A stretch of 36,022 nt of DNA from a virus, in the IMG/VR virus record IMGVR_UViG_3300036781_000178, positions 1 to 36,022 of that record; one strand, written 5' to 3'. How positions within the stretch are numbered: the stretch's first letter is position 1; each line of letters begins with the position of its first letter. Below are positions 3,534 to 19,106 of this stretch, in pieces. The position numbers and the translations under genes were made by a program. The notes under the pieces were generated by a model. That model searched no databases. It was not told the origin of the DNA and saw only the letters and a program-made list of their open reading frames with translations.

Positions 3534-4234
3534 GGCTTGATTCTCTTAAATTCGACTACCCAGACCCAGGAGTTTTCGTCCCAGGCGCCGGCGCCGTTGA
3601 TTTGATCCCAGAGCACCCGGTAAAGCTCATACGCGCTATCGTTGAAATGGGTCTTGCCATCGGGCATCGTGCATTCGTAGATGCCTTGGCACGCCATGGA
3701 GCGCTTTGCCCAGTGCGATACGCGGACGCCCTCCGCAACGGCATCGACTTCGCTGCATTCCTGCAGGCGCTGCACGCACACGCCGGTGACTTCGAGATCG
3801 ATGCGGCTGGCCACGCGCGGCATGAAGATCGCCGGGCGTTTCCACCAAAAGATACCGGTTCCGCCGCGCTTGCGCCGTTTGTAGTCCGCCGGCGGCTCAA
3901 ACTGATATTGCTCGCCCTTCTCGATCGTCTGGTCGACAAAGTGCCATTCCATCCGGTCCTTCTCCGCGCTCCAGCGCTGTTCCCAAAAGCCAAACGCGAA
4001 AAAGGTCTCTTTCACCCAGAGGCGATCGCCAGGCTGGCCGTAAGGGCATGCAATACCGTGGTCGCTGCGCATGCTGCCCCACATGGCGCCGCCGGTCGCT
4101 TTGTCGTAGTGCGGTGGCCATTCCGGCAAATAGCCGTCCGGCTGGGGGCGCAGGGGGCGCCGCGTCTGGGTCTTACTGCCGTCCAGGCAGGCGCGCACCA
4201 TCGGCGCAGACATCAATATCGGGCGCTCTTTCAC
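3530..4234 (-). CDS. Phage ASCH-like family protein
   Basis: 234 residues from a GTG start preceded by AAGGAG. The N-terminus (RPILMSAPMVRACLDGSKTQTRRPLRPQP) matches a widespread phage family whose first segment resembles an ASCH/PUA-like RNA-binding fold. The body carries PGDRLWVKETF and IFMPRVASRIDLEVTGVCVQRLQ, both typical of that family, and an end of the WVWVVEFKRI type. Some databases call relatives morphogenetic proteins, without good evidence. A nucleic-acid-binding role is inferred. Confidence 0.7.
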   Translation of the reverse strand: MKERPILMSAPMVRACLDGSKTQTRRPLRPQPDGYLPEWPPHYDKATGGAMWGSMRSDHGIACPYGQPGDRLWVKETFFAFGFWEQRWSAEKDRMEWHFVDQTIEKGEQYQFEPPADYKRRKRGGTGIFWWKRPAIFMPRVASRIDLEVTGVCVQRLQECSEVDAVAEGVRVSHWAKRSMACQGIYECTMPDGKTHFNDSAYELYRVLWDQINGAGAWDENSWVWVVEFKRIKP

Positions 4235-4749
4235 GCTTTCTCCTTACTTTGCGCTTCAGGCGCTTGGACGATGTTCTTGGCCACCCACGCGCGCATGCGT
4301 GTCCAGCGGCGTTGCGGGCCATCTGAAACGGCCATAAGGACCTGACGCACCCGATGGTGCCATTCGCCTTGCCAGCGAGGCAGCGGGCCGCACAGTTCGA
4401 TTTCGACCCACTCATAATCGTCGTCCTGTTCATCGTTCTCCCAAACGATTTCCCGCGCCATCGATTCGGCGATGCCAAAGGCCTTGGCTACTTGTTCGGG
4501 GTCGTCCGGGTCGAGTTTGGCAATGTCGATGCCGCGCGCCGCGCCGAGCACGCCCAACGTGCAGAATTCGCCGTCGGCGGTGACCAGTGAATCGGCCGCC
4601 AGCGCCTTTTCCGGCATGGCGTCCAACGCGACAGCCAAATCGCGGAGCAGCCCTTGGCCACGCTTGCCGCAGATCGCGCGATTTACGGCGGCGCGGTACA
4701 GACCAAGCGTGCCGCTGTCGTCATCATCGGTATATCCGCTTCTGCTCAT
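4231..4749 (-). CDS. Phage hypothetical protein
   Basis: 172 residues from ATG 4749, which overlaps the stop of the DUF5131 gene (ATGA). The segment LYRAAVNRAICGKRGQGLLRDLAVALDAMP is characteristic of a phage family of unknown function often found in early regions. The middle carries TADGEFCTLGVLGAARGID, and an acidic stretch (WENDEQDDDYEWVEIE) follows. Its last 4 bp overlap the ASCH-like gene. Confidence 0.75.
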   Translation of the reverse strand: MSRSGYTDDDDSGTLGLYRAAVNRAICGKRGQGLLRDLAVALDAMPEKALAADSLVTADGEFCTLGVLGAARGIDIAKLDPDDPEQVAKAFGIAESMAREIVWENDEQDDDYEWVEIELCGPLPRWQGEWHHRVRQVLMAVSDGPQRRWTRMRAWVAKNIVQAPEAQSKEKA

Positions 4750-5810
4750 GATGGAAGCCCGTCCCAAGTGCGGCCATCGAGCAGTCGGCCCGCAGCCTTC
4801 TTTCCGACATTGAACATTGTAGTTTCGTCATGCTCGATCGGATCGGGATCGAAGCTCCAGTTGCTCGACGTGGTATCCCACAGGTTGGCAGATCGGAACT
4901 TGCTTTCGTCGAGAGCGGCATCAGCCTCACTCAACTCGGCCGAGAAGTGGTCGCCGGGTAGCCAGTTTCCCCATTGCTTGAATAAAAATGGCAATCCAGC
5001 GGCCGCGCATTGGTCGCGCAAGCCGCGATGCCAGTCAGGATGCGCCGGGCGCGCGCCGGGGCCGCTCTCCCCGCCAGCGATCACCCAATGCAGGCCGCCA
5101 TCGGCCGGGCGGGCACTCTCGAACTGTCGCTTGGCGCCGTGCGTTCTGAAGTTTCCAGTCGGCTCGCTGTAGATGTGGAAGCGCAGGTCCACCGGGCCCA
5201 GCAGCGGTTCCGCACTGATAAATCGCACTGCTGCCGGCGTTTCCAGCAACATCGGGATGCGTTCGTCAGCGCGCTCCTGATCCTCGACGCTCACGCCAAG
5301 CCATACATTCGGCAGCGGCCATTGCTTTATCACGGGCGCCGACTGATCGCGCGGAATAAAGCCGCCATCCCAGGCCTCCATGTCATCGACGACGTTCTGA
5401 ATCCTGACGCGCAATCCCGGCGCGGACATGTAGCGCTGCATGCGATCCGCGCGCTTGGTGAGCGCCTGGAAGGTATGTCGGGAGCACAGAGCCATGACGG
5501 CGAACACCTTGTCGATGAATTCGTCGCTGACCTGCTCTTCAAAAAGGTCGGACATGGAATCGACAAAGATGCGCTGCGGCTTCTTCCAGTGCAGCGGCGC
5601 ATCGAGCATGGAAGGCACTTCGCGGACGATTCCCGTCCACTTCGGACCCTGGCTGGTCATGTGAACCAGCCCCTCGTATGGCATGCCCGGCCCGCTGAAT
5701 CGCATCGCCATGCGCTCGGCGTAGCAGTTTTTGCAGCCCGGGGAAACGCGCTTGCAGCCGCGCGTTGGATTCCAGGTCTTGTCGGTCCATTCAATGGAAG
5801 TCTCAGCCAT
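4746..5810 (-). CDS. DUF5131 family protein (phage Gp37/Gp68 type)
   Basis: 354 residues. The start MAETSIEWTDKTWNPTRGCK and the CysX6CysX2Cys cluster (Cys19, Cys26, Cys29, reading CKRVSPGCKNCYA) are the hallmark of the Gp37/Gp68 family, a radical-SAM-like fold with a probable iron-sulfur cluster. Other family motifs are RIFVDSMSDLFEE, FQALTKRADRM, NVWLGVSVEDQ, RFISAEPLLGPVDL and WVIAGGESGPGARP, ending FLFKQWGNW. The family occurs in many phages and in some defence islands, but its reaction is not established. The start overlaps the preceding gene by 8 bp. Confidence 0.9.
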   Translation of the reverse strand: MAETSIEWTDKTWNPTRGCKRVSPGCKNCYAERMAMRFSGPGMPYEGLVHMTSQGPKWTGIVREVPSMLDAPLHWKKPQRIFVDSMSDLFEEQVSDEFIDKVFAVMALCSRHTFQALTKRADRMQRYMSAPGLRVRIQNVVDDMEAWDGGFIPRDQSAPVIKQWPLPNVWLGVSVEDQERADERIPMLLETPAAVRFISAEPLLGPVDLRFHIYSEPTGNFRTHGAKRQFESARPADGGLHWVIAGGESGPGARPAHPDWHRGLRDQCAAAGLPFLFKQWGNWLPGDHFSAELSEADAALDESKFRSANLWDTTSSNWSFDPDPIEHDETTMFNVGKKAAGRLLDGRTWDGLPS

Positions 5811-7063: not shown

Positions 7064-9145
7064 TCAGGCGCCCTGGACCGCCAGCGCCACGGCGACTGGG
7101 CGCACCCAGATCGGCATCGCGCTGAGTTTGAAGGTCTCGCCGGCCTCGGCCAGCAGGATCGTCTGGAACATCACATTGGCGATTGCCTGAGCTGCCGCCG
7201 GCGGGACCGCGTTGCCGATGCGCTCGCGCCATTCCTGATCGCTTTTCCCTTCCATTTGGAAAGCATGCCGATTCGGCACGACGTGCCATATCCCGGTGAC
7301 TTCGTCCTGTTCGTAGTCCCAGCCCCAGCATTCCTCCGGATCGACCAGGCTTTGCAGCGCCGCCAGCTCCAACGTGGTGAAGGGGCGATGCCAAGTGCCG
7401 TCAAGCGCGCGGATGTACGCCACGAGCTTTTGATTCAGCGCCGGCATGGATGCCGGACGCGGATCGGCAACGGACCATTTGCCGTTGTCATGCCCCGCCG
7501 CCGCGCTTACGGCGCCGCTGGGGGCTTCCCAGTGCTGCACGCCGTAGTGCCCTGCCGTCAGGTAAGCATCGCCCTTGCCGCGCGCCAGGTTGGGCCGGGG
7601 ATCGGCTACCGCGTAGGCGCCGCTGTCGTCACCGCCGATGACTGTGCCGGCAGACGCATCGAAAGGCGTCACCATGTACTTGCTGAACAGGGGCCCGGCC
7701 GGCGGGCGCGGATCGCTAACGGCAAAGGCGCCCTGCCCGGTCGTGCTGCCGCTGATGATCGTGCCAGCGGCGGCGCCGAAGTCGGTAACCGGATATTTCC
7801 CGAAGGTGCCCGGTGATGGGCGCGGATCAGCGACCGCCTGGCCAGGCCCGCCGGCGCTGGTGACGGCGCCGGTAGCGGCATCCCATCCGACGATGCGGAA
7901 GCAGTTGTTGAACTTCGGCGCGCCGAGGTGGCGCGGGTCTGCGACCGCGTAGGCGCCCTGGCCAGGGTTCTGCTGCCCAGCTATTGCACCGGTACTGTCC
8001 GTCCAGTTGTGGACCCCGTAGGCCTGTCCATCGGACCATTTAGCGGACTGGTCGAAACGCACATCAGCGACAGCAAAGCGGCCATTGCTGGGCAGTGATT
8101 CGCCCGCCACCGCTCCGCTTGGCTGCTCCCAACCCACCACCCCGCCGCCGGCTGCATAGAGTTCCTGGCGGGGATCGGCGACGGCGAACGCCCCATTGGT
8201 CGGCAGCCCTCGGCTGGTGATGGCGCCCATGGAATCATCCCATCCGTTGACGCCGAGGTTGGTGCGCTGCATTTCCGGCACCAGCAGGAAATCGCGCAAG
8301 TGCCCGTTTTCCACCGCCAGCTCGTTCAGGCTGCGCCAGTCGCTACCGGCTTTGACGAAAGCGAGGCGCAACCAGGTCTTCATCTGCAACTGGGGGATGC
8401 GGTGCATTGGGCCGCCGCGCAGGTCGCCGGGCAGCGGCATCTGGCTCAAAATCTCCCCGACGCCGCGAAGGTTATGCTTCTCCGGCTCGTACAGCGAGGC
8501 CGGGACCTGCTCCATGTGCCGCGCCACCAACAGGAAGCGCTTGCGGCTCTGCGCCAGTTCGCCCAGTTCGCCGCAGTCGTGCGTGGTTTCGGCGACGGCG
8601 TAGCCATAGGCGCGGAACAACGCGATGATCTGATCCAACAGGCTACGGCCGCGCGTGGCAATGCGGGGCACGTTCTCGAAGACGATCAGCTTGATCGGCT
8701 TGTCTTTGTAGGCTTCAAGCATCAGCCAGACGCCGCGCAGGGTAAGGCGGTTCAGCGCCTGGTACTTGTCGGTCTTGCTCTTACTCTCCGACAGCAGGCC
8801 GGAGAATCCCTTGCATGGCGCCGACAAGAAGACCACATCCGGGTCCTCGTTGCTGAAAGCCATGTGAATATCGGCGGTGGTCGCTTCGCGCCAGCCTGGG
8901 GGCGGCATGTGGCCATGAAAGGCGAGGTATTGTTCCAGATCGAACAGGTCCAGCACGGTGCCCCGGACGCCGGAGCGGTTTTCGAAGTCCTTGATGACGC
9001 CGGGATGCACGTCGATGCCGCCGATGCAGCGCCCGCGCGCCTCGATGTTGCCGACGCGGGCGTGGCCGCGATTGAAGCCGCGCGCGCCGCCGCCTGCGCC
9101 ACAGAAAAAATGAGCGTGTTTGATCACGCGAATGTCGAGCGCCAT
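7064..9145 (-). CDS. DNA cytosine-C5 methyltransferase with internal repeats
   Basis: 693 residues; transfers methyl from S-adenosylmethionine to C5 of cytosine in DNA. The start at ATG 9145 overlaps the preceding stop (TAATG). Motif I is HFFCGAGGGARGF (13-25), motif IV is SAPCKGFSG with catalytic Cys111, motif VI is FENV (156-159), motif VIII is QSRKR (199-203) and motif X is RIGNAVPP (642-649). The target-recognition region (about 305-565) is replaced or expanded by seven imperfect copies of a 35-45 residue unit ending AVADPR, which explains the unusual length (usual 300-450). No restriction endonuclease is adjacent, so it is probably an orphan enzyme protecting phage DNA or altering expression. 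Confidence 0.92.
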   Translation of the reverse strand: MALDIRVIKHAHFFCGAGGGARGFNRGHARVGNIEARGRCIGGIDVHPGVIKDFENRSGVRGTVLDLFDLEQYLAFHGHMPPPGWREATTADIHMAFSNEDPDVVFLSAPCKGFSGLLSESKSKTDKYQALNRLTLRGVWLMLEAYKDKPIKLIVFENVPRIATRGRSLLDQIIALFRAYGYAVAETTHDCGELGELAQSRKRFLLVARHMEQVPASLYEPEKHNLRGVGEILSQMPLPGDLRGGPMHRIPQLQMKTWLRLAFVKAGSDWRSLNELAVENGHLRDFLLVPEMQRTNLGVNGWDDSMGAITSRGLPTNGAFAVADPRQELYAAGGGVVGWEQPSGAVAGESLPSNGRFAVADVRFDQSAKWSDGQAYGVHNWTDSTGAIAGQQNPGQGAYAVADPRHLGAPKFNNCFRIVGWDAATGAVTSAGGPGQAVADPRPSPGTFGKYPVTDFGAAAGTIISGSTTGQGAFAVSDPRPPAGPLFSKYMVTPFDASAGTVIGGDDSGAYAVADPRPNLARGKGDAYLTAGHYGVQHWEAPSGAVSAAAGHDNGKWSVADPRPASMPALNQKLVAYIRALDGTWHRPFTTLELAALQSLVDPEECWGWDYEQDEVTGIWHVVPNRHAFQMEGKSDQEWRERIGNAVPPAAAQAIANVMFQTILLAEAGETFKLSAMPIWVRPVAVALAVQGA
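7450..8235 (-). repeat. Seven in-frame tandem repeats in the methyltransferase
   Basis: Each unit contains G-A/T-I/V followed some 10 residues later by a G-x-A-V-A-D-P-R-like block. On the plus strand this appears as recurring GGGCGCGGATC-type tracts (for example near 7458, 7600, 7708, 7820 and 7936). Units are divergent, so the array is old or under selection for diversity. Confidence 0.75.
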
Positions 9146-9405
9146 TAGGCGAGTTCCTTTTCTTTTGCGTTGTAGCCGGCCAAAAACGCAGCTTCCAGAC
9201 GGTTGCGGAGATACGGCCCGCTGGTGACGCCGGACTGCAAGCGCTCGCCTTCCGGGCTTGCCATGAAGACGTCGCGCGCCATCGCGATGGCGGAGCGGTG
9301 ATCTCGCTGCGCCAGGTCCGGCGCCTGGCAGGGGCCTAGGCCGCAATCAGCACAGGTGCTGGGGTAGCCGTGGCCCTCGTTATGGAGAACGTGCGCGCAA
9401 GTCAT
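9145..9405 (-). CDS. Small zinc-binding hypothetical protein
   Basis: 86 residues from ATG 9405, overlapping the stop of the YdaS-like gene (ATGA). The N-terminal part has a metal-binding pattern (CAHVLHNEGHGYPSTCADCG, then C). The C-terminal part is a helix with LRNRLEAAFLAGYNAKEKELA, a form common at the end of phage proteins of this size. The longer frame upstream is arginine-rich shadow of the neighbour. Function unknown. Confidence 0.7.
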   Translation of the reverse strand: MTCAHVLHNEGHGYPSTCADCGLGPCQAPDLAQRDHRSAIAMARDVFMASPEGERLQSGVTSGPYLRNRLEAAFLAGYNAKEKELA

Positions 9406-10030: not shown

Positions 10031-10627
10031 TCAGGCCTCCAGCGCGCGGAAGGCCGCCACCAGCGCTGCCTTGGTGGAGTTGTAAAGATCACTGGAGGCC
10101 GAGACCTCTGCGTCGGTCGGCTCCTGCGCGGTATCGCCCTCGAAGGCCTTGTCGTCCCGCAGGTCCGCCTCATCGGCGGCGATGTGCGCGGCCGCGAAGT
10201 CCTTGGCGGCCTTGACGAACGCTTCTTCCGCCTGGTCGCGCGGCGATGGCTCAGCGGTGAAATGGGTCTCCGCCAGCATGACCCGCATCAAGTCGTCGGG
10301 GGTCGGAGCGTTCACCGGGGTCTCGCCGGATTTGGTATGCGCGAGTGAATTGATCGTGCGGATCAACTCCATAGCGCCGACCAGGGTGGCCTGGCCAAGC
10401 CCGACAGCCTTGCGCCCGTTTTTCAACTGGTAGTTCATCATCGAGAACACCAGGTCGCGCGCTTCTGCGACTTTGGCCGGCTCTTCGCCGTGAAGCTCCC
10501 GCAGGGACGCCCAGAGCCAGACCAGCGTCGGCGCGTGGCAGTCGCGGCCCAGCAGGATGAACATCGGCTCATCGGGTTTTGCGTTGGCGTAGCAGTCAAA
10601 TGCGCCAGGATCGTTTTTGGTGCCCAT
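10031..10627 (-). CDS. Phage hypothetical protein
   Basis: 198 residues. The opening GAFDCYANAKPDEPMFILLG followed by RDCHAPTLVWLWASLR is typical of a phage family of unknown function. The middle is helical; the C-terminal half is acidic and alanine-rich and ends TKAALVAAFRALEA. The start overlaps the reverse transcriptase stop (TAATG), so it is coupled to the DGR in the same message although it is not a known DGR component. Confidence 0.75.
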   Translation of the reverse strand: MGTKNDPGAFDCYANAKPDEPMFILLGRDCHAPTLVWLWASLRELHGEEPAKVAEARDLVFSMMNYQLKNGRKAVGLGQATLVGAMELIRTINSLAHTKSGETPVNAPTPDDLMRVMLAETHFTAEPSPRDQAEEAFVKAAKDFAAAHIAADEADLRDDKAFEGDTAQEPTDAEVSASSDLYNSTKAALVAAFRALEA

Positions 10628-12048
10628 TAGGCCCTCCGGTAGGTTTGGGTGAGTTGCTTGTTGATTGAGTGACCACGGCGGCGCAGGATGTTCGCCAGCC
10701 GGGCGCGGTCGTGATGGGAACCCGTGGCTTGGCCGAAAACGCCGAAATAGCTGTTGGCCGTGACGAAAAGGGCTTCGCCTGCAAGGGATTCCACGCGCGA
10801 AAGTGCTTCGCGATAGGTCCGCCGGCGGGTGTAACGGTGATGGGGCTTGATCACCTGACCGACAAAATCCACGCCCCGATCGACCGGCTGCAGGATGGTT
10901 TTCGAGGGGTTCAGGCGCACCGCCAACGCCGCAGGCAGCCAGGAGTCGAGGTCCGCGAGAATTTCGTTCAGTCGCCCGGGCTCGCCCAGGAATAGGAAGT
11001 CATCGACGTACCGGATGTAATGTCGGCTGCGCAGGACGTGCTTCGCCCGCTGGTCGAGCTCATTCAGGTAGACATTGGCCAAGAACTGGCTGGAGAGATT
11101 CCCGATCGGGAGGCCGTTTTCTGCCGACTGGTTGATCAGGCGCTTGTGCGGCGGCACCTTTTCAAGCAGCTTGGGGTTGCCGCGAAACTGGAAGTTCTCG
11201 CGAACATCGTGAAACAGGACGCGGCCGGCGAGGTCCAACCACCAAGGCTCGGGGATGTGGCGCGCCAGGAGGCCAAACAGGATCGGCTTGTTGATCGTGA
11301 CGAAGAAATTCGCCAGGTCGCACTTCAGATAGTGGACGGGCTTCGTCCAATTCTCGGTCGCGCTCCGGATCTTCGATTCCAGGCGTTGGGCGGCATAGAG
11401 CGTGCCGCGGCCCGGGATGCAGGCACACGAATCAGCGATGAACATCGCGTGGAAACGCGCGGCAACGCGGTTGTAAAGGAGATGATGGACGATCCGATCG
11501 CGAAAGTCCGCCGCCCAGACCTCGCGGGATTTTGGGCGGGTGATGACGAAACAGATGCTTCGGCCGGGCGCGTAGGTGCCGGCGCGCAGCTCGTCATCCA
11601 GCGTGCCAAGGTTGCGCTCGAGGTTGACTTCGAAGGCCAGCGCGGAGGCGGTGTTTCGCTTCGTGCGCCGGCAGTCGAAATACGCGGCTACGAGCTCCGC
11701 GAAGGTGAAGTCTGCATGGTGGCGCGCGGATGGGGTAAATTGATCTGCGGACGGCACGGGCTCGGTACTCGTTGTTCTTGTGGTTGTTGTTCTGGTTGCC
11801 GTTAGCGAAGTTCTGCATCCAGGCATAGTCCGAGTTCTGAGCGTGCTGCGTCCATTCGCGCTATCTACGTCGCCCCGCCGAGCATCGATGGCCTTCAGCG
11901 GGGAAACTGCACCGGACCGGGCCTGCTGACTCGCAGCGGTATCCGGGATGTGCATGTCCGTGGCCTTGTGAGCCAGGGGCGCGACCAGATTAAAAGTCGC
12001 ACTGTCCGGGCGGCCGTGACCACTCGGAAACTGGCGATCGCTATTCAT
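10627..12048 (-). CDS. Diversity-generating retroelement reverse transcriptase
   Basis: Copies the template repeat RNA into adenine-mutagenised cDNA. From ATG 12048, whose 8 bp overlap with avd implies coupling, the frame is 473 residues. DGR-type motifs: the motif A Asp in LKCDLANFF (Asp243), GLPIGNLSSQFLANVYLNEL (312-331) with the DGR-typical SQ in place of SP, and IRYVDDF (catalytic Asp349-Asp350). The C-terminal thumb contains NPSKTILQPVDRGVDFVGQV. The recognisable enzyme begins near residue 114 (FTFAELVAAYFDCRR). Residues 66-102 are the template repeat read in another frame and are threonine-rich. An in-frame GTG at 11757, inside the TR, would give 376 residues, the usual DGR size, so the start is uncertain. 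Confidence 0.96.
   Translation of the reverse strand: MNSDRQFPSGHGRPDSATFNLVAPLAHKATDMHIPDTAASQQARSGAVSPLKAIDARRGDVDSANGRSTLRTRTMPGCRTSLTATRTTTTRTTSTEPVPSADQFTPSARHHADFTFAELVAAYFDCRRTKRNTASALAFEVNLERNLGTLDDELRAGTYAPGRSICFVITRPKSREVWAADFRDRIVHHLLYNRVAARFHAMFIADSCACIPGRGTLYAAQRLESKIRSATENWTKPVHYLKCDLANFFVTINKPILFGLLARHIPEPWWLDLAGRVLFHDVRENFQFRGNPKLLEKVPPHKRLINQSAENGLPIGNLSSQFLANVYLNELDQRAKHVLRSRHYIRYVDDFLFLGEPGRLNEILADLDSWLPAALAVRLNPSKTILQPVDRGVDFVGQVIKPHHRYTRRRTYREALSRVESLAGEALFVTANSYFGVFGQATGSHHDRARLANILRRRGHSINKQLTQTYRRA
11743..11851 (-). repeat. DGR template repeat (TR)
   Basis: An adenine-rich repeat on the minus strand. In the target frame it would encode a run of AAC codons (AWMQNFANGNQNNNHKNNEY). 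The 3' end (plus strand 11745-11771, starting CTGCGGACGGC) is identical to VR1 and VR2 and is the candidate initiation-of-mutagenic-homing region. The rest differs from the three VRs almost only where the minus strand has A. It lies between avd and the reverse transcriptase core, inside the reverse transcriptase open frame. Confidence 0.95.
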
Positions 12049-12385
12049 AATGCTTTTTCCATCCGTTGGCCTGCTTGCCGATCGAGTTCGTGTGCTCGAC
12101 CGCCTGGGCGTATTGCGGCTGCGAAATCAGCTTCAGGTCCTGGCAAAGGCGAAGCGTGATCTGGACAACCTCAAGCCGCTCAAGGATCTTCTGCAGGTGC
12201 GGGACCTTGTCATCGGCGGAATTCGCCCGATAGATCAAGAGCACCACGGCGACGCATTCCTTGCGAAGCTCGGTGCCGAGGTCGGACTTAAAATCCCTCG
12301 GCATGTTGCGGACGAAAGCCGCGACGAGCTTGAGCAAGTCGTACGTCACCTTGTAGATCGGCAATTTGGCGTGTGGGGCGACCAT
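12041..12385 (-). CDS. avd: DGR accessory variability determinant Avd
   Basis: 114 residues, helical throughout and basic. It matches the Avd/four-helix-bundle family: LPIYKVTYDLLKLVAAFVRN, PRDFKSDLGTELRKECVAVV, LLIYRANSADDKVPHLQKIL, LEVVQITLRLCQDLKLISQ and a final GKQANGWKKHYE. Avd forms a pentamer that binds the reverse transcriptase and template RNA and is required for mutagenic retrohoming (family knowledge). It starts 16 bp after the VR1 target stop and overlaps the reverse transcriptase ATG, giving the order target-avd-TR-RT. Confidence 0.93.
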   Translation of the reverse strand: MVAPHAKLPIYKVTYDLLKLVAAFVRNMPRDFKSDLGTELRKECVAVVLLIYRANSADDKVPHLQKILERLEVVQITLRLCQDLKLISQPQYAQAVEHTNSIGKQANGWKKHYE

Positions 12386-12401
12386 GCTGAAAATTGTTAA
12401 A

Positions 12402-12923
12402 TTACTGAATGACTAATCTGCGGACGGCACGGGCTCGGTACTCGCCGCCCTTGCGGTAGCCGTACTGGTCGCCGTAAGCGAAGTCCTGCACCCAGGCACA
12501 GTCCGAGCCCTGAGCGTGCTGCTCGGAAGTCCAGTGCCAGTTTTCGGAAAACTCGCCATTGAGGTTCCGAAACAGCGTGAGGCCGTCATAGCGGGTCATC
12601 AGCGACCAGTCGTCGAAGCCTTCGGTCCGCAGATCGCCGGCCCAAGCCTTGGCCGCTTCCCAGTCAAGACGATGTTCACGCTCGGTCTGGGCGAGGACCA
12701 GGTGACACGCCCGGCCGTCATCGGTGATCGAGAGGCCGGCGTAAATGCCGCCCTGCCCCGCCCAGACTTCGCCGATCGCCGGCGGAGTCATGATTGCTGC
12801 GGGTGATGCGCCGCCCTTGCGCATGAGGTCCGCCAGCCAGAGGCGGCCCAGCGTTTCGGCATCGATCGAGACATCAGCCCCGGCAATCTTGAGGTGCACC
12901 GGGCCTTTCGTGAGAGTTTCCAT
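12402..12923 (-). CDS. DGR target protein 1 (carries VR1)
   Basis: 173 residues from ATG 12923 with an AAGGA site upstream; the longer upstream frame is shadow of target 2. The N-terminus (1-50) is helical. Residues 51-80 read IGEVWAGQGGIYAGLSITDD and CHLVLAQ, and a DDWSLMTRYDGLTLF segment follows. The C-terminal part from WHWTSEQHAQ to EYRARAVRRLVIQ is the diversified region. This is the C-type-lectin-like/DUF1566-like scaffold on which DGR variable residues are displayed. About a dozen positions between 138 and 161 correspond to TR adenines. It is a paralogue of the VR3 protein. The ligand is unknown; expression from the early promoter argues against a tail fibre. Confidence 0.9.
   Translation of the reverse strand: METLTKGPVHLKIAGADVSIDAETLGRLWLADLMRKGGASPAAIMTPPAIGEVWAGQGGIYAGLSITDDGRACHLVLAQTEREHRLDWEAAKAWAGDLRTEGFDDWSLMTRYDGLTLFRNLNGEFSENWHWTSEQHAQGSDCAWVQDFAYGDQYGYRKGGEYRARAVRRLVIQ
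12416..12522 (-). repeat. DGR variable repeat 1 (VR1)
   Basis: Aligned without gaps to the TR. In the 77 bp variable core I count 16 differences, all at positions where the minus-strand TR has adenine. The 27 bp 3' segment is identical to the TR. Identity ends upstream at about 12522. Confidence 0.94.
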
Positions 12924-12976
12924 GTAGTTCCTTCGTGAATGAGGAGGTTTTCGCCGCCGTCGAAATGGTTGAATTG

Positions 12977-13591
12977 CTAAATTTTTAACCTGCGGACGGC
13001 ACGGGCTCGGTACTCGCCGCCCTTGCGGCTGAGGTCCTGGTAGCCGCCAGCGAAGCCCTGCAGCCAGGCACACGCCGAGTCCTGAGCGCGCTGCGTAGAG
13101 GACCAGTACCAGGCCTCTTCGAACGCTTCAGCGCCGCCCGAGGCAAAGGCCGGCACCTGGGTGATTGCCGGAAGCGCATCGGTATAGGGATAGCCAGGCG
13201 GTACGCTGCTGGGGTTGTCGCCATCGCGATATCCCAGGTTTTTCCGCGTCGTCGGCTTGAAGTGGCGGTACAGCAATTCCAGTTGGTCGCGCGCAGGCAG
13301 ATGCCAATCGGTCTCGCCATCGATATCCAGGCTGAGGACGGATTGCGCCAGCGGGCTGCCAGCTTCGGCCATCGCGCGGGTGTTCGACATGCCGTCGAAA
13401 AAGCTCAGGGCGCCGGCGACGGACTTCAGGTTCTTGTTCCAGCGGACGGGCGCGAAGTCGCCGATCTTTCCGGAGACGATCAGCAGGCAGAGCTGATCAC
13501 CCTCGAGATAGCGGCCTGCGTAGTAGCCGCCGGCGAACGGGGTGCCGACGACGTCGGGGATGCTGATTGCTGCTGCGGTGAGTGCGTTCAT
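12977..13591 (-). CDS. DGR target protein 2 (carries VR2), DUF1566-like
   Basis: 204 residues from ATG 13591, preceded by a strong GGAAGGAA site. Residues 15-40 (VGTPFAGGYYAGRYLEGDQL) parallel the YAG segment of targets 1 and 3. Residues 90-110 (DIDGETDWHLPARDQLELLY) and 161-166 (WYWSST) match the DUF1566/Lcl C-terminal family, a formylglycine-generating-enzyme-like (C-type lectin) fold used by many DGR variable proteins. The VR spans about 166-201 and ends EYRARAVRRLKI. It is the longest and most divergent of the three targets and lies between rdgC and target 1. The binding partner is unknown. Confidence 0.9.
   Translation of the reverse strand: MNALTAAAISIPDVVGTPFAGGYYAGRYLEGDQLCLLIVSGKIGDFAPVRWNKNLKSVAGALSFFDGMSNTRAMAEAGSPLAQSVLSLDIDGETDWHLPARDQLELLYRHFKPTTRKNLGYRDGDNPSSVPPGYPYTDALPAITQVPAFASGGAEAFEEAWYWSSTQRAQDSACAWLQGFAGGYQDLSRKGGEYRARAVRRLKI
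12990..13096 (-). repeat. DGR variable repeat 2 (VR2)
   Basis: Gap-free alignment to the TR. I count 20 differences in the 77 bp core, 19 at template adenines and one (plus-strand 13073, G to C) elsewhere. The 27 bp 3' block is identical to the TR. It is the most heavily altered of the three repeats. Confidence 0.93.
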
Positions 13592-13653
13592 TTCCTTCCT
13601 TTCTTGGAGCGGGTTTGTGGTTGATGCAACGCGAGTGATCAACCGGAATTCTG

Positions 13654-14538
13654 TTAAGCGGAGTAACCGCCGAGGGCTTCGACCAGGCCGCTGATCACCC
13701 GGCTCATTTCGCCTGTGGTGATCGCGAAATCCGTGTCGAAGCGGTCGGCTTCTTCGAGATCGTCGGAAAAGACGCCCTCAAGGAACTTAATTTTCTTGAT
13801 CTGCAGTTGGTCGGTGAGCACGAACGAAACGCGGCCCTCGTACGCCATCGCCAGGCGCGTCGGGACCTTTCCGCCCTCGACGTGCTGCCGGACTTCGGCG
13901 ATATCCAGATGGTGACGGGCGTACTTCACGGTTGCCTGCATGTCATCGGTGGACTTCAGTTCGCATTCCCGGTCGACATCGAAATCGCCGGGCGAGCTGC
14001 GGCCGGCCAGCCAAAGTGCCATTGAGGCCGCCGGCGAGGAGGCAGTCGAGACTTGCGCGGCCGTCAAGCCCGGTACGGACTTGAACAGCAGAGTCAGCAC
14101 GTCCTCGGCCTTTTTCTGGCTGCCGACTTCGAGCGCGAGAACGCGCGCCGCGGGGTCGATCCACACCCAGATGCTTTCCTGTCGGGTGAAGGCCTGCGGG
14201 AGAAGCTGAAGGTAGGTGTCTTCGCGGATCTCGCGCGCCTGCTTCTTGCCGGGCTTGCGGCCGGTGATCTCTTCGATCTTGGCCATGCGCTCATCCGCCT
14301 TGCGGCGCACCACGGATGCCGGGAGCAGGCGCGATTCGACTTTGAACTGGAGAATCCAATGTCCACCGATGGCCTCCGCCAGGGCGCCATTCTCATCACC
14401 ACGCGGAGACACCCAGCCGGCGGACTTGTCCTGGCTGGGGAGGCATTCGGCGAAGCGCGCGGCCGTCAGACCCTCTTCCACTTGAGCGAGCGCCGGCAGG
14501 TTTGCGCCCAGGGTGTAAATGATGAGGTTTTTGAACAT
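13654..14538 (-). CDS. rdgC: Recombination-associated protein RdgC
   Basis: 294 residues from ATG 14538 (MFKNLIIYTLG), the canonical RdgC start. RdgC is a ring-shaped DNA-binding dimer that limits RecA loading and activity. Family landmarks are FVEC-like FAECLPSQDKSAGWVSPRGD, ILQFKVESRLLPASVVRRKADERMAKIEEITGR split by the GRKPGKKQAREI segment, QLLPQAFTRQESIWVWIDP, and the C-terminal RLAMAYEGRVSFVLTDQLQIKKIKFL. Phage copies are common in beta- and gammaproteobacteria. Here it stands between the exonuclease/annealase genes and the DGR targets. Confidence 0.92.
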   Translation of the reverse strand: MFKNLIIYTLGANLPALAQVEEGLTAARFAECLPSQDKSAGWVSPRGDENGALAEAIGGHWILQFKVESRLLPASVVRRKADERMAKIEEITGRKPGKKQAREIREDTYLQLLPQAFTRQESIWVWIDPAARVLALEVGSQKKAEDVLTLLFKSVPGLTAAQVSTASSPAASMALWLAGRSSPGDFDVDRECELKSTDDMQATVKYARHHLDIAEVRQHVEGGKVPTRLAMAYEGRVSFVLTDQLQIKKIKFLEGVFSDDLEEADRFDTDFAITTGEMSRVISGLVEALGGYSA

Positions 14539-14626
14539 GGTTTCTCGGTAAAGGGAGGGGCTCGGCGCTTTGGGCGCTAGAAGACAGGAGATTTTTCCCG
14601 CTGCGCTCCGCCCCATTGATCGGTTG

Positions 14627-14932
14627 CTATTTGGCTGTCACCAGCCCTTTTGATTTGAGCTTCAGGTATGTTTCGGCGTGACCGTGCCAAAACGCTATTT
14701 CGACCTCTTCGCGCGTCAGATGCGCGGGCAGCGCGTGCTGACCGTCAACCACCATGTGGCAGGGGTAGCAGGCATATGCGCCAAGTTCGTCCGCTGCCTT
14801 GTGCGCGCCGCCCTTCCCTGCCCGATGCGTATTCGGGTGGGCCAGGACGGTTTGCTCGGGATTGAACGAACAAACCTGCGGCAGGCGAACCGTGCAGTCC
14901 TCGTCGCGCGCGCTTTCGCGAATCTTGCTCAC
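14627..14932 (-). CDS. YbcO-like putative nuclease
   Basis: 101 residues from a GTG start that overlaps the preceding stop (GTGA). It reads MSKIRESARDEDCTVRLPQV, then CSFNPEQTVLAHPN and YACYPCHMVVDGQ. This is the pattern of the YbcO/DUF1364 family in lambdoid nin-like regions, thought to be HNH-like nucleases acting in phage recombination. The conserved Cys and His residues (CSFNPE, LAH, CYPCH) could coordinate metal. The activity is inferred from the family. Confidence 0.82.
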   Translation of the reverse strand: MSKIRESARDEDCTVRLPQVCSFNPEQTVLAHPNTHRAGKGGAHKAADELGAYACYPCHMVVDGQHALPAHLTREEVEIAFWHGHAETYLKLKSKGLVTAK

Positions 14933-15477
14933 GCGTCCTCCGTAAATTTCATGATCTTGTCGACCACCGCGTCCAACTCGGCCCGGCCCGCGTAGTTCGT
15001 GAGCACGCGCTCCAACAGCACGTTTGCCACCGCGTCATAAAGCTCGTTGAACTCGGGGTCTTCCATGCTTCCGAAGCTGATGGACTTCGCGACCACCTGC
15101 ATGCGGCCCTCGAGGTCCCAGTGCTGTTCGAAATAACCAGCGAGCTTCGTGATGTCCTTCCGGAACGTCTCGAAGTTCTTCTCCACCGCCATGCCGCGGT
15201 AGGTCTTGTGGACACGCTTGGCGCCCCAGTGCTCGAAACCCAGGGTCAGCAGGGCGAAGAACTTCCGGTGTTTGACCGGATCGCGCGGGATCACCATCGA
15301 GAGCGAAAACACCTCGCCTGGCTCGGCCTTCATCATCCGGCGCCAGAACCGCTTCCAGCGCTTCCCATCGTCAGGCGACAGCCCGCGCATCGAGTCGTGC
15401 AGGACCCGATTCAGCGCCGCGCGCTCGATATCGGTGAGCGCGACCTGGTGCTTTTTGACGATGGTGACGTCGGACAT
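14929..15477 (-). CDS. DUF1367-like phage protein
   Basis: 182 residues. The HRKFFALLTLGFEHW core, FETFRKDITKLAGYFEQ, and VAKSISFGSMEDPEFNELYD followed by AVANVLLERVL match the DUF1367 family, early lambdoid proteins of unknown biochemical role that are neighbours of NinB/YbcO-type genes. It ends in a charged helix. The ATG is immediately downstream of the KTSC gene (4 bp gap), so it is in the same operon. Confidence 0.82.
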   Translation of the reverse strand: MSDVTIVKKHQVALTDIERAALNRVLHDSMRGLSPDDGKRWKRFWRRMMKAEPGEVFSLSMVIPRDPVKHRKFFALLTLGFEHWGAKRVHKTYRGMAVEKNFETFRKDITKLAGYFEQHWDLEGRMQVVAKSISFGSMEDPEFNELYDAVANVLLERVLTNYAGRAELDAVVDKIMKFTEDA

Positions 15478-15481
15478 TGGC

Positions 15482-15769
15482 TCAGCTGATCCGCTTGTAT
15501 TCGAACTTGCGCTTGATGTTCTCGTCGAGGTGTTTACCCTTCGATTCGGCGGCGATCAGGGCCGCATGCTGCTCCGCCGGCACCGCGAAGTAGTGGTACA
15601 GGCTGGTCGCATCCGGCGGAGCATCCTTGCCCTTGCGATAGAACTCGACGGCGAGCGTTTGGCTAGGAATGTCGTAGCCCACAGCCTTGATCTGGCTGGA
15701 GTCAACGGCATCCAGGGCAATGGCGAGCGCAGGGGTGATGGGCGCGACGGGGGTGATCTGGGTATCCAT
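15482..15769 (-). CDS. KTSC domain protein
   Basis: 95 residues with a GGAG site ahead of ATG 15769. The KTSC signature is seen: SSQIKAVGYDIPSQTLAVEF, YHYFAVPAEQHAALIAAESK and GKHLDENIKRKFEYKRI. This small domain is common in phages, often beside recombination genes, and is thought to be nucleic-acid-related, but its function is not proven. The N-terminal 22 residues are an Ala/Pro-rich leader. Confidence 0.85.
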   Translation of the reverse strand: MDTQITPVAPITPALAIALDAVDSSQIKAVGYDIPSQTLAVEFYRKGKDAPPDATSLYHYFAVPAEQHAALIAAESKGKHLDENIKRKFEYKRIS

Positions 15770-15795
15770 GGTTTTCTCCGGTGTGGGTGTGTGAA

Positions 15796-17421
15796 TCAGT
15801 CCTGATAGGCGGGCTGGCGGCGCTCGCTGAGTTCCTGCAGGTCCATTTCCAGCAACCAGCCGATGACCTTCTGTTCGCTGACGCGGTAGGACGACGAAAG
15901 CAACAGCAGAATCGCGTCGTCGGTTGGGCGCACGCCGCCGGCGGCGACCTTGAGATACGGGCTGCTGGTAGCCTGCGGAACTGCGCCGGCCTTGGGGGCG
16001 GTAGTCGCAGCGGGGGTCAGTGCCAAATCGGGGTGAGTAGGAGTGGCCTGCGCTGGCGCCGCGGCTTGGGCAGTAACCAACTTGTCCGCCTCTTCCTTTC
16101 GGATGCGCTCCCGATCGGCTTCCAGGCGCTGGGCTTCTTTCTGCTGATGCTCAGCGACCCGCAACTTGACCAGCGACGTGAAGTCCTCTGGGGCCTTCAG
16201 GATGATTTGGAAGGTATCGGGGAAAAGGTGAGTGTGCTCGGCGCCGAACTCTTTCAGGGTTGCCATGTTGGCCCTGATCCGGTTGGCGGTCTGGTTGGCT
16301 GCGATCTTGGCGCGCGCCAGTTCGTTGGAAACCGCTTCACGCAAGCTGGCGACCGTTCGCTTACCCTTCATTGCACCTGCGAAGTCAGCAGCGATCACCG
16401 GCATGTAGGCGTGGCCCAGTTCGGCGTTTGCCGTCGCCAGGTGCTTCGTCAGGGCATCCTGACCGCCCTTGAGGATTTCAGAGCGGATATCCGCCTTTTT
16501 TTTCTCGACCAGTTTGTCAAGTTCCAGGCGTTTGGCGCGCATCAAAGCCTTGATTTCGTCCATGGCGCGGAAAACAGCGTCGATATCCGCCGCCTGCGCC
16601 TGGGCCTGTGCCTTCACCACGTCAATGCGCTTTTCCCCGTCTTCGAGGAACGTCACCATTTTGGCGGCGTCGGCAAAGGACTGGTCGTCGACCAGATTCG
16701 TGTTGATGCCATCGATCCGAGCAGCAACCACCGCGCGCCATGCGTCGATATTGGATGCGACGACGCGACCCGAGATTTCAACCGACAGCGCCGGAAGGTT
16801 GGTGATCGGTGCGGCCGCGGCGGCAGCGGGAGTCTCGACCGGCTGGAAGTTCTTGACGTCTTCCAGCAGCAGGCGCCAGGCCGGGATGATCTTCGCGCGC
16901 CATTCCGGCTCGCTTTCGTACCACTGGTGCAACATGGTGTCCCGGTTGCCGTTGGACGCCATGAACAGGCACCGCTTGGCGCCGATCACCATCATCTGCT
17001 GTTCCATCTGAGGCTTGTAAAGGTCGGGAATCACTCCGGCCTTTAGGGCTGCCGCCAGCTCGATGTTCAGGCTCTTGTGCTCGAACAGCGTCTCCTCGTC
17101 CATGGTGACGCCGTCATAGGACGACGCCAGCGGCACACCTTCCATGACGTGCGAGGCGCACACCGGGTACAAGTCTTCGCCGATGATCTCTTCGGCCCAG
17201 GGGCGCGCGATCGCTTCGAAGCGGTGGCCGGCATCGAACCGGTCCTGCTGCTCGGCGGTCGGCTCCGGGCGGTCGCCGGTCGCCAGTTGCCGGATGAATT
17301 CCGAGCGGCTGACGTAAGGCGACATGCCGAGAACTACCGGCGCCTCCGAGGCGTTGCAGAACTTCTCGCGATGGGCAAGCCATTCCGGCGTGCCTTGAAC
17401 CAGGTTGTGGATGGTGTGCAT
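15796..17421 (-). CDS. YqaJ/lambda-type recombination exonuclease
   Basis: 541 residues. The N-terminal 200 residues are a lambda-exonuclease/YqaJ fold: GTPEWLAHREKFCNASEAPV (10-29), catalytic Asp103 in SYDG and Glu114-x-Lys116 in FEHKS, then PDLYKPQMEQQMMVIGA. It degrades one strand of linear double-stranded DNA to create tails for an annealase. The C-terminal 340 residues are an unusual extension with long charged helices (coiled coil) and an Ala/Pro linker, ending in a small helical module (VSEQKVIGWLLEMDLQEL). It directly follows the annealase candidate, as in lambda red and RecET operons. Confidence 0.9.
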   Translation of the reverse strand: MHTIHNLVQGTPEWLAHREKFCNASEAPVVLGMSPYVSRSEFIRQLATGDRPEPTAEQQDRFDAGHRFEAIARPWAEEIIGEDLYPVCASHVMEGVPLASSYDGVTMDEETLFEHKSLNIELAAALKAGVIPDLYKPQMEQQMMVIGAKRCLFMASNGNRDTMLHQWYESEPEWRAKIIPAWRLLLEDVKNFQPVETPAAAAAAPITNLPALSVEISGRVVASNIDAWRAVVAARIDGINTNLVDDQSFADAAKMVTFLEDGEKRIDVVKAQAQAQAADIDAVFRAMDEIKALMRAKRLELDKLVEKKKADIRSEILKGGQDALTKHLATANAELGHAYMPVIAADFAGAMKGKRTVASLREAVSNELARAKIAANQTANRIRANMATLKEFGAEHTHLFPDTFQIILKAPEDFTSLVKLRVAEHQQKEAQRLEADRERIRKEEADKLVTAQAAAPAQATPTHPDLALTPAATTAPKAGAVPQATSSPYLKVAAGGVRPTDDAILLLLSSSYRVSEQKVIGWLLEMDLQELSERRQPAYQD

Positions 17422-17428
17422 GGCGACC

Positions 17429-18589
17429 TCAGAGCGGGTTAGCGAGAAACTTCATGGCTTGCTCGACCTGCGCCACCGTGAGACCTTCAAGCGCCTCAAC
17501 TTGAAGGTGCTTGCAAATTTCTACGTCCGTGATGGTCATGAGCTTGGCCTTCTCCCGCAGCGCCTCAATAAGGGCTGGCGCTGCGCCAGCGTTCTTGCTT
17601 GCCGCATGATCGATGGGGGTGGACTCGCCGCCACGAAGGGCGACTTTCTGCTCATCGGACAGTGCACCCTTGCTTTCCAGCATGGTGATGATCTGGTCGG
17701 GCGTCTTCTTGCCTTCGGCGATGGTCTTCTGCCAGCCCGGAAGGTTCTTTTTGAACAATTCCAGGTCATAGGGCGGCTTGGCCACGCCGGCAGGCGGACT
17801 TTTGCCCGTCGCCGCCGGATCGTCCTTGTTGAACAGCACCTCGACGGTGGTATCACCTTCCTTGATCGCGGTGAGATAACCGCGCATGGTCGCCAGGTGC
17901 TCGAGGGTGATTTCCTCGACGCCGGCCACGCCGAAGTGCTCGAATATGGTTTCGCCGCTGACGCCCCGCTTCTGGAAGTTCGCCAGGGCGGCAAGACGGC
18001 GATTGCTAAGCGTTTCGGCGGTGCCCATGATGGTCTGGCGGGCCTTGTTGTAGAGCGGTGACCAGAGAGCCTTCGGGATGACCTTGAGGATGGCGTTGCG
18101 CAGCGCGATCGAGCTGCCAGCGTTGGCCGTCACGCCGATCATGTCCGGCTTGTAACGCTTGCCCTTGGAATCGATGATGCGGCGCTGCACCTCGTAGGTG
18201 ATGGCGACATTGCGTTCCAGGTCGTGCATCACGCCTTGGGCGGTCACGAAGTCACCCACATCGCTGATTACGCGCGCGCCGGCGCGGGCATTGCCCCAGC
18301 AGGAGAAGATGATTTCGGCGAAGCGCGCGCTGGGGCCTTCCAAGGTTTTGGTTTCCCAGCGACCGGTGTCCTTGTTCATTTCCTTGCGCGGGAGGGCGTA
18401 GACGCATTCCTCGGCGACTTCTTCGGAGAGGGTCACCAGCTGCTCGGCCTCGCCCATGAACCGCTTGATGCTGCGCGGGTACTTGTGCGCAGTGGCGATC
18501 TGCTGGTCAATTTCGCTCTTATTGAGCAAAGCGACCGTGCCGGACTCGGCGGTCATGATTTCGGGAGATTCTTCGAGAACTGCGCTCAT
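17429..18589 (-). CDS. Candidate single-strand annealing protein
   Basis: 386 residues. The central block EGPSARFAEIIFSCWGNARA, GARVISDVGDFVTAQGVMHD, TYEVQRRIIDSKGKRYKPDM and NAGSSIALRNAILKVIPKAL belongs to a phage family usually labelled hypothetical. Its invariable pairing with a YqaJ-type exonuclease makes a RecT/Red-beta-like annealing role likely. The C-terminal third is linked by an AATGKSPPAGVAKPP stretch and contains two helical segments (LFKKNLPGWQKTIAEGKKTP; ITDVEICKHLQVEALEGLTV). Placed between the exonuclease and DGR target 3, it could also handle retroelement cDNA. The function is inferred from context. Confidence 0.7.
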   Translation of the reverse strand: MSAVLEESPEIMTAESGTVALLNKSEIDQQIATAHKYPRSIKRFMGEAEQLVTLSEEVAEECVYALPRKEMNKDTGRWETKTLEGPSARFAEIIFSCWGNARAGARVISDVGDFVTAQGVMHDLERNVAITYEVQRRIIDSKGKRYKPDMIGVTANAGSSIALRNAILKVIPKALWSPLYNKARQTIMGTAETLSNRRLAALANFQKRGVSGETIFEHFGVAGVEEITLEHLATMRGYLTAIKEGDTTVEVLFNKDDPAATGKSPPAGVAKPPYDLELFKKNLPGWQKTIAEGKKTPDQIITMLESKGALSDEQKVALRGGESTPIDHAASKNAGAAPALIEALREKAKLMTITDVEICKHLQVEALEGLTVAQVEQAMKFLANPL

Positions 18590-18614
18590 GATGGTCTTTC
18601 TTGAAATTGTTAAA

Positions 18615-19106
18615 TTACTGAATGACTAATCTGCGGACGGCGCGGGCTCGGTACTCGCTGCTCTTGCGGGTGCCGTACTGGCTGCCGCTGCCGAAGACCT
18701 GCACCCAGGCATAGGCCGAGTCCTGAGCGTGCTGCTCCGAAGTCCAGTGCCAGCCGTCGCCGAACTGGTCCTTGAGGTTGTTGAACAGGACAATCCCGTC
18801 ATGACGATTCGGGAGCGACCAGTCGCGGGCGTTGTCCGTGGTGGTCAATTCGGCCGCCCAGGCCTTCGCGGCTTCCCAGTTGTGCTTCAGGTCGCGGTCG
18901 GTGTCGGCGAGGACCAGGTGGCAGGGCTGGCCGTTGTCGTCGAGCGAGAAGCCCGCGTAGATGCCACCCTGCCAGCGCTTGCCGATCGTCGCCGGCGGAA
19001 GCAACGCCGCGACCGGGGCGGCTTCGCGCTGCAGGCGCTCCAGCAGGAGCTTGGTGATCTGGTCTTCGTGGATAGCTATTTCGATTCCGTTGATGATGAG
19101 GTTCAT
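18615..19106 (-). CDS. DGR target protein 3 (carries VR3)
   Basis: 163 residues from ATG 19106 (MNLIINGIEIAIHEDQI), which overlaps the HNH stop (ATGA); the longer upstream frame is shadow. It is a paralogue of target 1: IGKRWQGGIYAGFSLDDNGQ, CHLVLADTDRDLKHNWEAAK and RDWSLPNRHDGIVLF, then WHWTSEQHAQ and the VR ending EYRARAVRRLVIQ. The C-type-lectin-like variable surface is expected at 129-150. It lies about 6.9 kb from the TR, separated by six genes, so it is a remote second locus of the same DGR. Its 3' flank is identical to that of target 1 over 38 bp. Confidence 0.9.
   Translation of the reverse strand: MNLIINGIEIAIHEDQITKLLLERLQREAAPVAALLPPATIGKRWQGGIYAGFSLDDNGQPCHLVLADTDRDLKHNWEAAKAWAAELTTTDNARDWSLPNRHDGIVLFNNLKDQFGDGWHWTSEQHAQDSAYAWVQVFGSGSQYGTRKSSEYRARAVRRLVIQ
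18629..18735 (-). repeat. DGR variable repeat 3 (VR3)
   Basis: Gap-free alignment to the TR. I count 16 differences in the 77 bp core, 14 at template adenines and two adjacent ones not (18690-18691, changing an Ala codon to Gly). One silent change also lies in the 27 bp 3' block (18642). It is the least faithful of the three to the present TR. Confidence 0.92.

Follow-up and report, generated by a model that had tools for sequence, protein, structure and literature searches.

A diversity-generating retroelement with one template and three lectin-fold targets belongs to a multi-target lineage of phage and prophage elements from Betaproteobacteria and Pseudomonas

Diversity-generating retroelements (DGRs) in phages are usually explained as switches of tail-fibre tropism. 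The locus described here has one template repeat (TR) and three variable repeats (VRs), each VR at the end of a separate C-type-lectin-like gene, and it raises two questions: whether one template serves all three genes, and whether their products have anything to do with the tail. The locus lies on a virus record from IMG/VR (IMGVR_UViG_3300036781_000178), and the whole stretch analysed is called the window. Since this record is linear and has 36,022 bases, the phage is probably incomplete. The contig starts with tRNA-Lys and an integrase, followed by the DGR and then by recombination, repressor and replication genes, and gene annotation found no virion genes on it. On the minus strand, the order of transcription is T3, a recombination block, T2, T1, Avd, an RNA element, the TR and the reverse transcriptase (RT) (Table 1). 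The tRNA-Lys(TTT) at 50-125 stands beside the integrase (413-1573) at the contig end and probably serves as the attachment site of the prophage. Two genes further downstream in the DGR operon, at 4746-5810 and 7064-9346, are a match to the PADLOC candidate models PDC-M41B/PDC-M30B and a large DNA methyltransferase.

Table 1. Features of the DGR and of the genes lying among its targets, in the order of minus-strand transcription
Feature	Position in window	Strand	Evidence
Target gene T3, 163 aa, C-lectin/Lcl_C, distal target	18615..19106	-	Lcl_C 1.8e-7; 55% identity to T1
VR3	18629..18735	-	14 A-site and 3 non-A differences vs TR
AT-rich element 3' of VR3 (CATTCAGTAATTTAAC), overlaps T3 stop	18604..18628	-	common to VR1 flank
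Gene between T3 and cassette	17429..18589	-	phrog_3657 9e-42, unknown function; position and PHROG only ("RecT-like" is just a working label given to a BLAST query)
RecE-like/YqaJ exonuclease between T3 and cassette	15796..17421	-	phrog_7655 1e-169; YqaJ 4.6e-9
NinB/Orf recombination mediator	14929..15477	-	phrog_319 3.3e-35
RdgC recombination protein adjoining cassette	13654..14538	-	PF04381 3.5e-96
Target gene T2, 204 aa, C-lectin/Lcl_C	12977..13591	-	Lcl_C 1.4e-10, above Pfam cut-off
VR2	12988..13094	-	21 differences vs TR: 20 A-site, 1 non-A
Target gene T1, 173 aa, C-lectin/Lcl_C	12402..12923	-	Lcl_C 2.4e-7; AlphaFold pLDDT 91.7; Foldseek 8q4e E 1.2e-7
VR1	12416..12522	-	16 differences vs TR, 16/16 at adenines
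AT-rich element 3' of VR1, overlaps T1 stop	12391..12415	-	same CATTCAGTAATTTAAC element as VR3 flank
Avd accessory protein, 114 aa	12041..12385	-	bAvd PF22296 1.9e-15; PHROG "Avd protein of DGR" 9.5e-32
RT-15 structured RNA, apparent template RNA leader	11849..12039	-	RF03018, 158.4 bits, E 3e-38, full model 1-192
Template repeat TR, 34 adenines in 107 nt	11743..11849	-	gap-free alignment with three VRs
Reverse transcriptase, start uncertain	10627..11757	-	Pfam RVT_1 1.8e-12; PHROG reverse transcriptase 9e-101

The locus is a genuine, complete DGR with intact parts. An earlier note, made from the letters of the DNA alone, had named one TR, three VRs in C-lectin-like targets, an RT with the motifs GLPIGNLSSQ and YVDD, and an Avd gene, and all of these hold. 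The RT (with both motifs), Avd and the three targets are intact open frames with the profile matches in Table 1, and scans of the contig find exactly three VRs, which end 2-14 nt short of the target stop codons. Together with the adenine-specific differences between TR and VRs, these parts identify a DGR. When the TR is aligned with the three VRs in one gap-free 107-nt register, 50 of the 54 differences fall at TR adenines (Fisher p = 4e-25). Over the inner 94 nt the count is 49 of 53 (Fisher p = 4e-24), in agreement with the 49 of 52 that the note had counted in a 77 bp core, and the changed adenines there became G 37 times, T 7 times and C 5 times.

One component had been overlooked. An Rfam search shows that the interval between Avd and TR is filled by RT-15 (RF03018), which adjoins the TR here and in all six relatives scanned (6/6). 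In this lineage, the DGR template RNA apparently has RT-15 as its leader. Within 11703-12048 (minus strand) there is no ATG, GTG or TTG from the TR end to the RT core, so the RT must begin inside or upstream of the TR. Candidate starts are GTG 11757, ATG 11826 and, further upstream, ATG 11955 and ATG 12048, the frame being open to 12048. In most of the loci surveyed, too, the sole possible ATG, GTG or TTG starts of the RT are inside the TR or upstream of it. In 67% of loci, the RT frame runs open through the leader, compared with 0-2% for the other frames. We ruled out that RT-15 and the TR form a translated N-terminal extension of the RT, because leader substitutions are even across the three codon positions (2140/2172/2060, versus 7018/5679/21267 in the RT), i.e., there is no protein-level selection on the leader.

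Two further short elements may bear on homing. A GC-rich 3' block (CCGTCCGCAG) is shared by the TR and the VRs. The 30 nt that follow VRs are AT-rich, with a GC content of 31%, and CATTYA is present there for 157 of 320 VRs, compared with 3 of 142 TRs; to judge from this distribution the CATTCAGTAATTTAAC/CATTYA element is a possible mark of the recipient site.

To place the locus among its kin, we confirmed 505 RT relatives among pattern-matched IMG/VR stretches, kept 80 of them and added 80 genome loci, the latter mostly from Betaproteobacteria and Pseudomonas. Annotated phages with a related RT are Magia, QDWS, Cruim01, Haboob, phPA-G and LPPA56. The VR scan took in 167 loci, from which duplicate RTs were then removed, and target counts use the 108 unique loci in which 10 kb or more precede the RT. 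Three of these have no VR, one has one, 67 have two, 33 have three and four have four, and all VRs of relatives lie upstream of the RT. With two or more targets in 104/108 and three or four in 37/108, three targets are not unusual in this lineage, contrary to what the note had supposed. We define the RT-15 multi-target phage DGR lineage, for this analysis, by an RT-15 leader and at least two stand-alone targets upstream on the same strand, all of which the window has. Its element belongs to this lineage, whose members reside in phages as well as prophages from Betaproteobacteria and Pseudomonas, and is the DGR of a temperate phage. Three loci (L166, L168 and L144) carry weak extra repeats, located relative to the RT at -1593, +8388 and -4759, which over 50 nt differ from the local TR at 4 non-A and 8-17 A positions; these are decayed VRs or chance matches.

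Adenine statistics were taken from the trimmed cores of 320 unique VRs at 148 unique loci. Changes are present at 4040 of 9684 template adenines and at 57 of 21898 other bases, which puts the substitution frequency at template adenines roughly 160-fold higher, with a measured non-A rate that is lowered by VR detection, which demanded few non-A mismatches. Against their own TR, VRs have a median of 0 non-A mismatches, versus a median of 34% against the TRs of other loci, so VRs track their TR as it evolves.

Near-identical relatives show that diversification has been recent. For example, two loci (L082 and L085) have RTs that are identical over 1050 nt and VRs that differ at 10 and 14 sites, all adenines. 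Another pair (L080 and L116) differs at 13, 15 and 16 sites in its three VRs, the distal one included, again all at adenines. Among D3-like P. aeruginosa phages, gene bodies differ at 0/338 nt and VRs at 17-20 adenine and 0-1 other sites. Differences at 10-20 template adenines per VR beside a gene body that hardly changes mean that several targets, including distal ones, have been diversified in nature. This variation was seen in relatives of the window locus; no close relative of the contig itself was found. Taking the window and its lineage together, we are nearly certain that this is a DGR with multi-target retrohoming.

By analogy with BPP-1, the template RNA would consist of the RT-15 leader and the TR, and the RT, together with Avd, would copy it and make mistakes at adenines. 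With the common GC-rich block as its guide, the cDNA would then replace the 3' end of each target gene (T1, T2 and T3). The least comfortable part of this scheme is T3, because VR3 has three non-A changes, whereas VR1 has none, VR2 has one and 37 of 42 third targets have none, so T3 may be overwritten only rarely. T3 could even be a frozen former target, with T1 and T2 still being diversified, all the more as one of the three changes falls in the 3' block needed for homing. However, A-site changes in VR3 still far outnumber the others, the 3' block (except for that one base) and the AT-rich flank are retained, and the distal VRs of relatives are as fresh as proximal ones. We consider a frozen T3 rather unlikely and prefer retrohoming into all three genes.

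What, then, are the targets? Their Lcl_C matches are above the Pfam cut-off for T2 and just below it for T1 and T3. The AlphaFold model of T1 has a small beta-hairpin/helix N-terminus followed by a C-lectin domain, and its best solved structural match by Foldseek is the C-terminal domain of Legionella Lcl. T1 and T3 are paralogues; no close relatives of T3 were confirmed in IMG/VR. In relatives, all but one of 296 complete targets are homologous and form a single cluster, with lengths of 116-269 aa, and no more than 14 exceed a hydropathy threshold, marginally so. Pfam detects no tail domain in T1-T3. The targets are short stand-alone proteins amid recombination genes.

Their setting is equally consistent. 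In annotated relatives, the DGR sits in an operon between repressor and integrase, together with recombination, methyltransferase and accessory genes. Recombination genes separate the distal target from the cassette in at least 16 of the 37 loci that have a distal target, and in QDWS the third target lies between the repressor and RecT. The integrase is downstream on the same strand in at least 33/97 loci and elsewhere in 8, both being lower bounds from BLAST, which replaced a strict-motif detection that matched only 6/99 loci. Lysis and tail matches in relatives are always on the opposite strand, downstream.

This matters because, in Roux clades 1, 4 and 6, the published targets of viral DGRs are for the most part tail proteins (PMC8144416), which makes early-operon, non-tail targets the interesting part of the lineage. 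That precedent, the C-lectin fold and the presence of a related C-terminal domain in some phage tail fibres would fit tropism switching as in BPP-1, in which the three lectins would sit on the virion and recognise host receptors, and the DGR would alter host range. However, the targets are small and soluble and lie in an early operon, which in relatives is on the strand opposite to lysis and tail genes. Scans of Magia, Haboob, QDWS, phPA-G and LPPA56 (complete apart from short terminal stretches in phPA-G and LPPA56) found VRs only in the repressor-integrase operon and none in virion genes. These observations argue against tail-fibre tropism switching, which we regard as improbable here, although the window contig has no virion genes and a further target there is possible. 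An argument from Haboob and phPA-G having the same DGR with different tails was dropped, as about 3.6 kb of their tail DNA is still common at 80%.

That the targets are not tail fibres is likely, and the same degree of confidence applies to this and multi-target retrohoming taken jointly. We infer that the targets are soluble early proteins, most likely intracellular during infection or lysogeny, and not receptor-binding fibres of the virion. Counter-defence and exclusion of rivals are examples of what such proteins might do, and a role of this kind is a tentative proposal with somewhat less than even odds. The binding partners of known DGR lectins are usually extracellular, which speaks against an intracellular role. 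The lineage is observed to encode two to four diversified lectins in an early recombination operon. Should these proteins work within the cell, phage DGRs would serve a second purpose in addition to attachment, and this question is approachable with phages that are already isolated (Haboob and the D3 relatives). The paralogy of T1 and T3 might suggest ordinary gene duplication, with gene conversion and not retrohoming keeping the repeats similar. This reading has a negligible probability given the roughly 160-fold adenine excess over 320 VRs and the RT, Avd and RT-15 alongside.

Among the closest described systems is the DGR of Burkholderia phage Magia (MT701587, PMC7883833), whose RT is 66% identical and which has the same order of RT-15, Avd and TR, three VRs by our scan and a DGR between repressor and integrase. 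Its authors noted two short lectin targets (PMC7883833). Magia differs from the window in the surrounding recombination genes, the TR and the targets. BPP-1 (mtd/brt) has the same Target-Avd-TR-RT order, adenine-specific VR, C-lectin target and Avd, but its RT is only about 30% identical and also differs in its start. In BPP-1, the TR directly follows avd, and the Phage_DGR RNA (RF03022) is 3' of the TR; the Rfam search found no RF03022 in the window, where RT-15 is 5' of the TR, so the structured part of the template RNA recognised by Rfam is on the opposite side. BPP-1 has a single target, a tail protein, whereas the window has three stand-alone targets, and no virion or tail receptor-binding protein was found among them.

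Multi-VR DGRs in Proteobacteria have already been described (PMC6642488, PMC3521204). In the accessible parts of these papers, they make up 28.6% of 948 DGRs, with G2/G4 cassettes that cluster in the RT tree and are enriched in Proteobacteria (PMC6642488), or about one seventh (PMC3521204), and DUF1566 targets are reported in Stenotrophomonas SKA14 (PMC6642488, PMC3521204). The multi-VR cassettes of Yan 2019 (G2/G4) and Schillinger 2012 resemble the window in having one TR and several paralogous targets, whereas the early phage operon, the RT-15 leader and the orphan targets without an RT are not described in those same parts. The gut phage DGRs nd4 and nd12 (tentaclins, PMC10743442) likewise have one TR and more than one C-lectin target, but their targets have two different topologies and are proposed receptor-binding proteins, in contrast to the small paralogues of the window's early operon.

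Target genes also occur in some phages that lack an RT, and there the VR corresponds to a TR found in a different phage. Such orphan genes (L089:4004-4492, L093:3956-4444, L179:5271-6579, L092:11268-12576 and others in L180-L205) show 0-1 non-A and many adenine changes. For example, the VRs of Aurca01 and Medea1 differ from the Cruim01 TR at 0-1 non-A and 12-18 adenine positions, and the first targets of these two phages differ from each other at 2/494 nt in the body, but their VRs at 15 adenine sites. For PMG1 and FBPa42 the match is to the Haboob TR, 60 nt long and free of non-A mismatches, and most D3-like contigs retrieved with the PMG1 target have no RT or Avd within the stretch covered. 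One locus (L188:10001-12400) has only a fragment of the RT and no TR match, but retains Avd and both targets, with a target body and VR identical to those of Haboob; it is apparently DGR loss caught in the act.

Recent loss of the DGR is the simple explanation for orphan targets, and diversification in trans is a possible alternative, a question that these phages raise. The broadest reading, that the lineage diversifies intracellular early lectin-fold binders against host defences or competing phages and not for attachment, with a co-resident phage's DGR acting in trans on the matching VR genes of RT-less phages, is speculative and, as a whole, unlikely.

In Aurca01 and Medea1 (L179:6599-7090, L092:12593-13087), a NUMOD4/HNH endonuclease gene, annotated "RecB" in Aurca01, stands in place of the avd-RT15-TR-RT block. 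The jumbo phage Paride (287 kb) has a VR-like match to the Haboob TR at about 3001-3480 of L090, with 4 non-A and 14 A mismatches in 60 nt, in a stretch that is annotated with small ORFs on the opposite strand.
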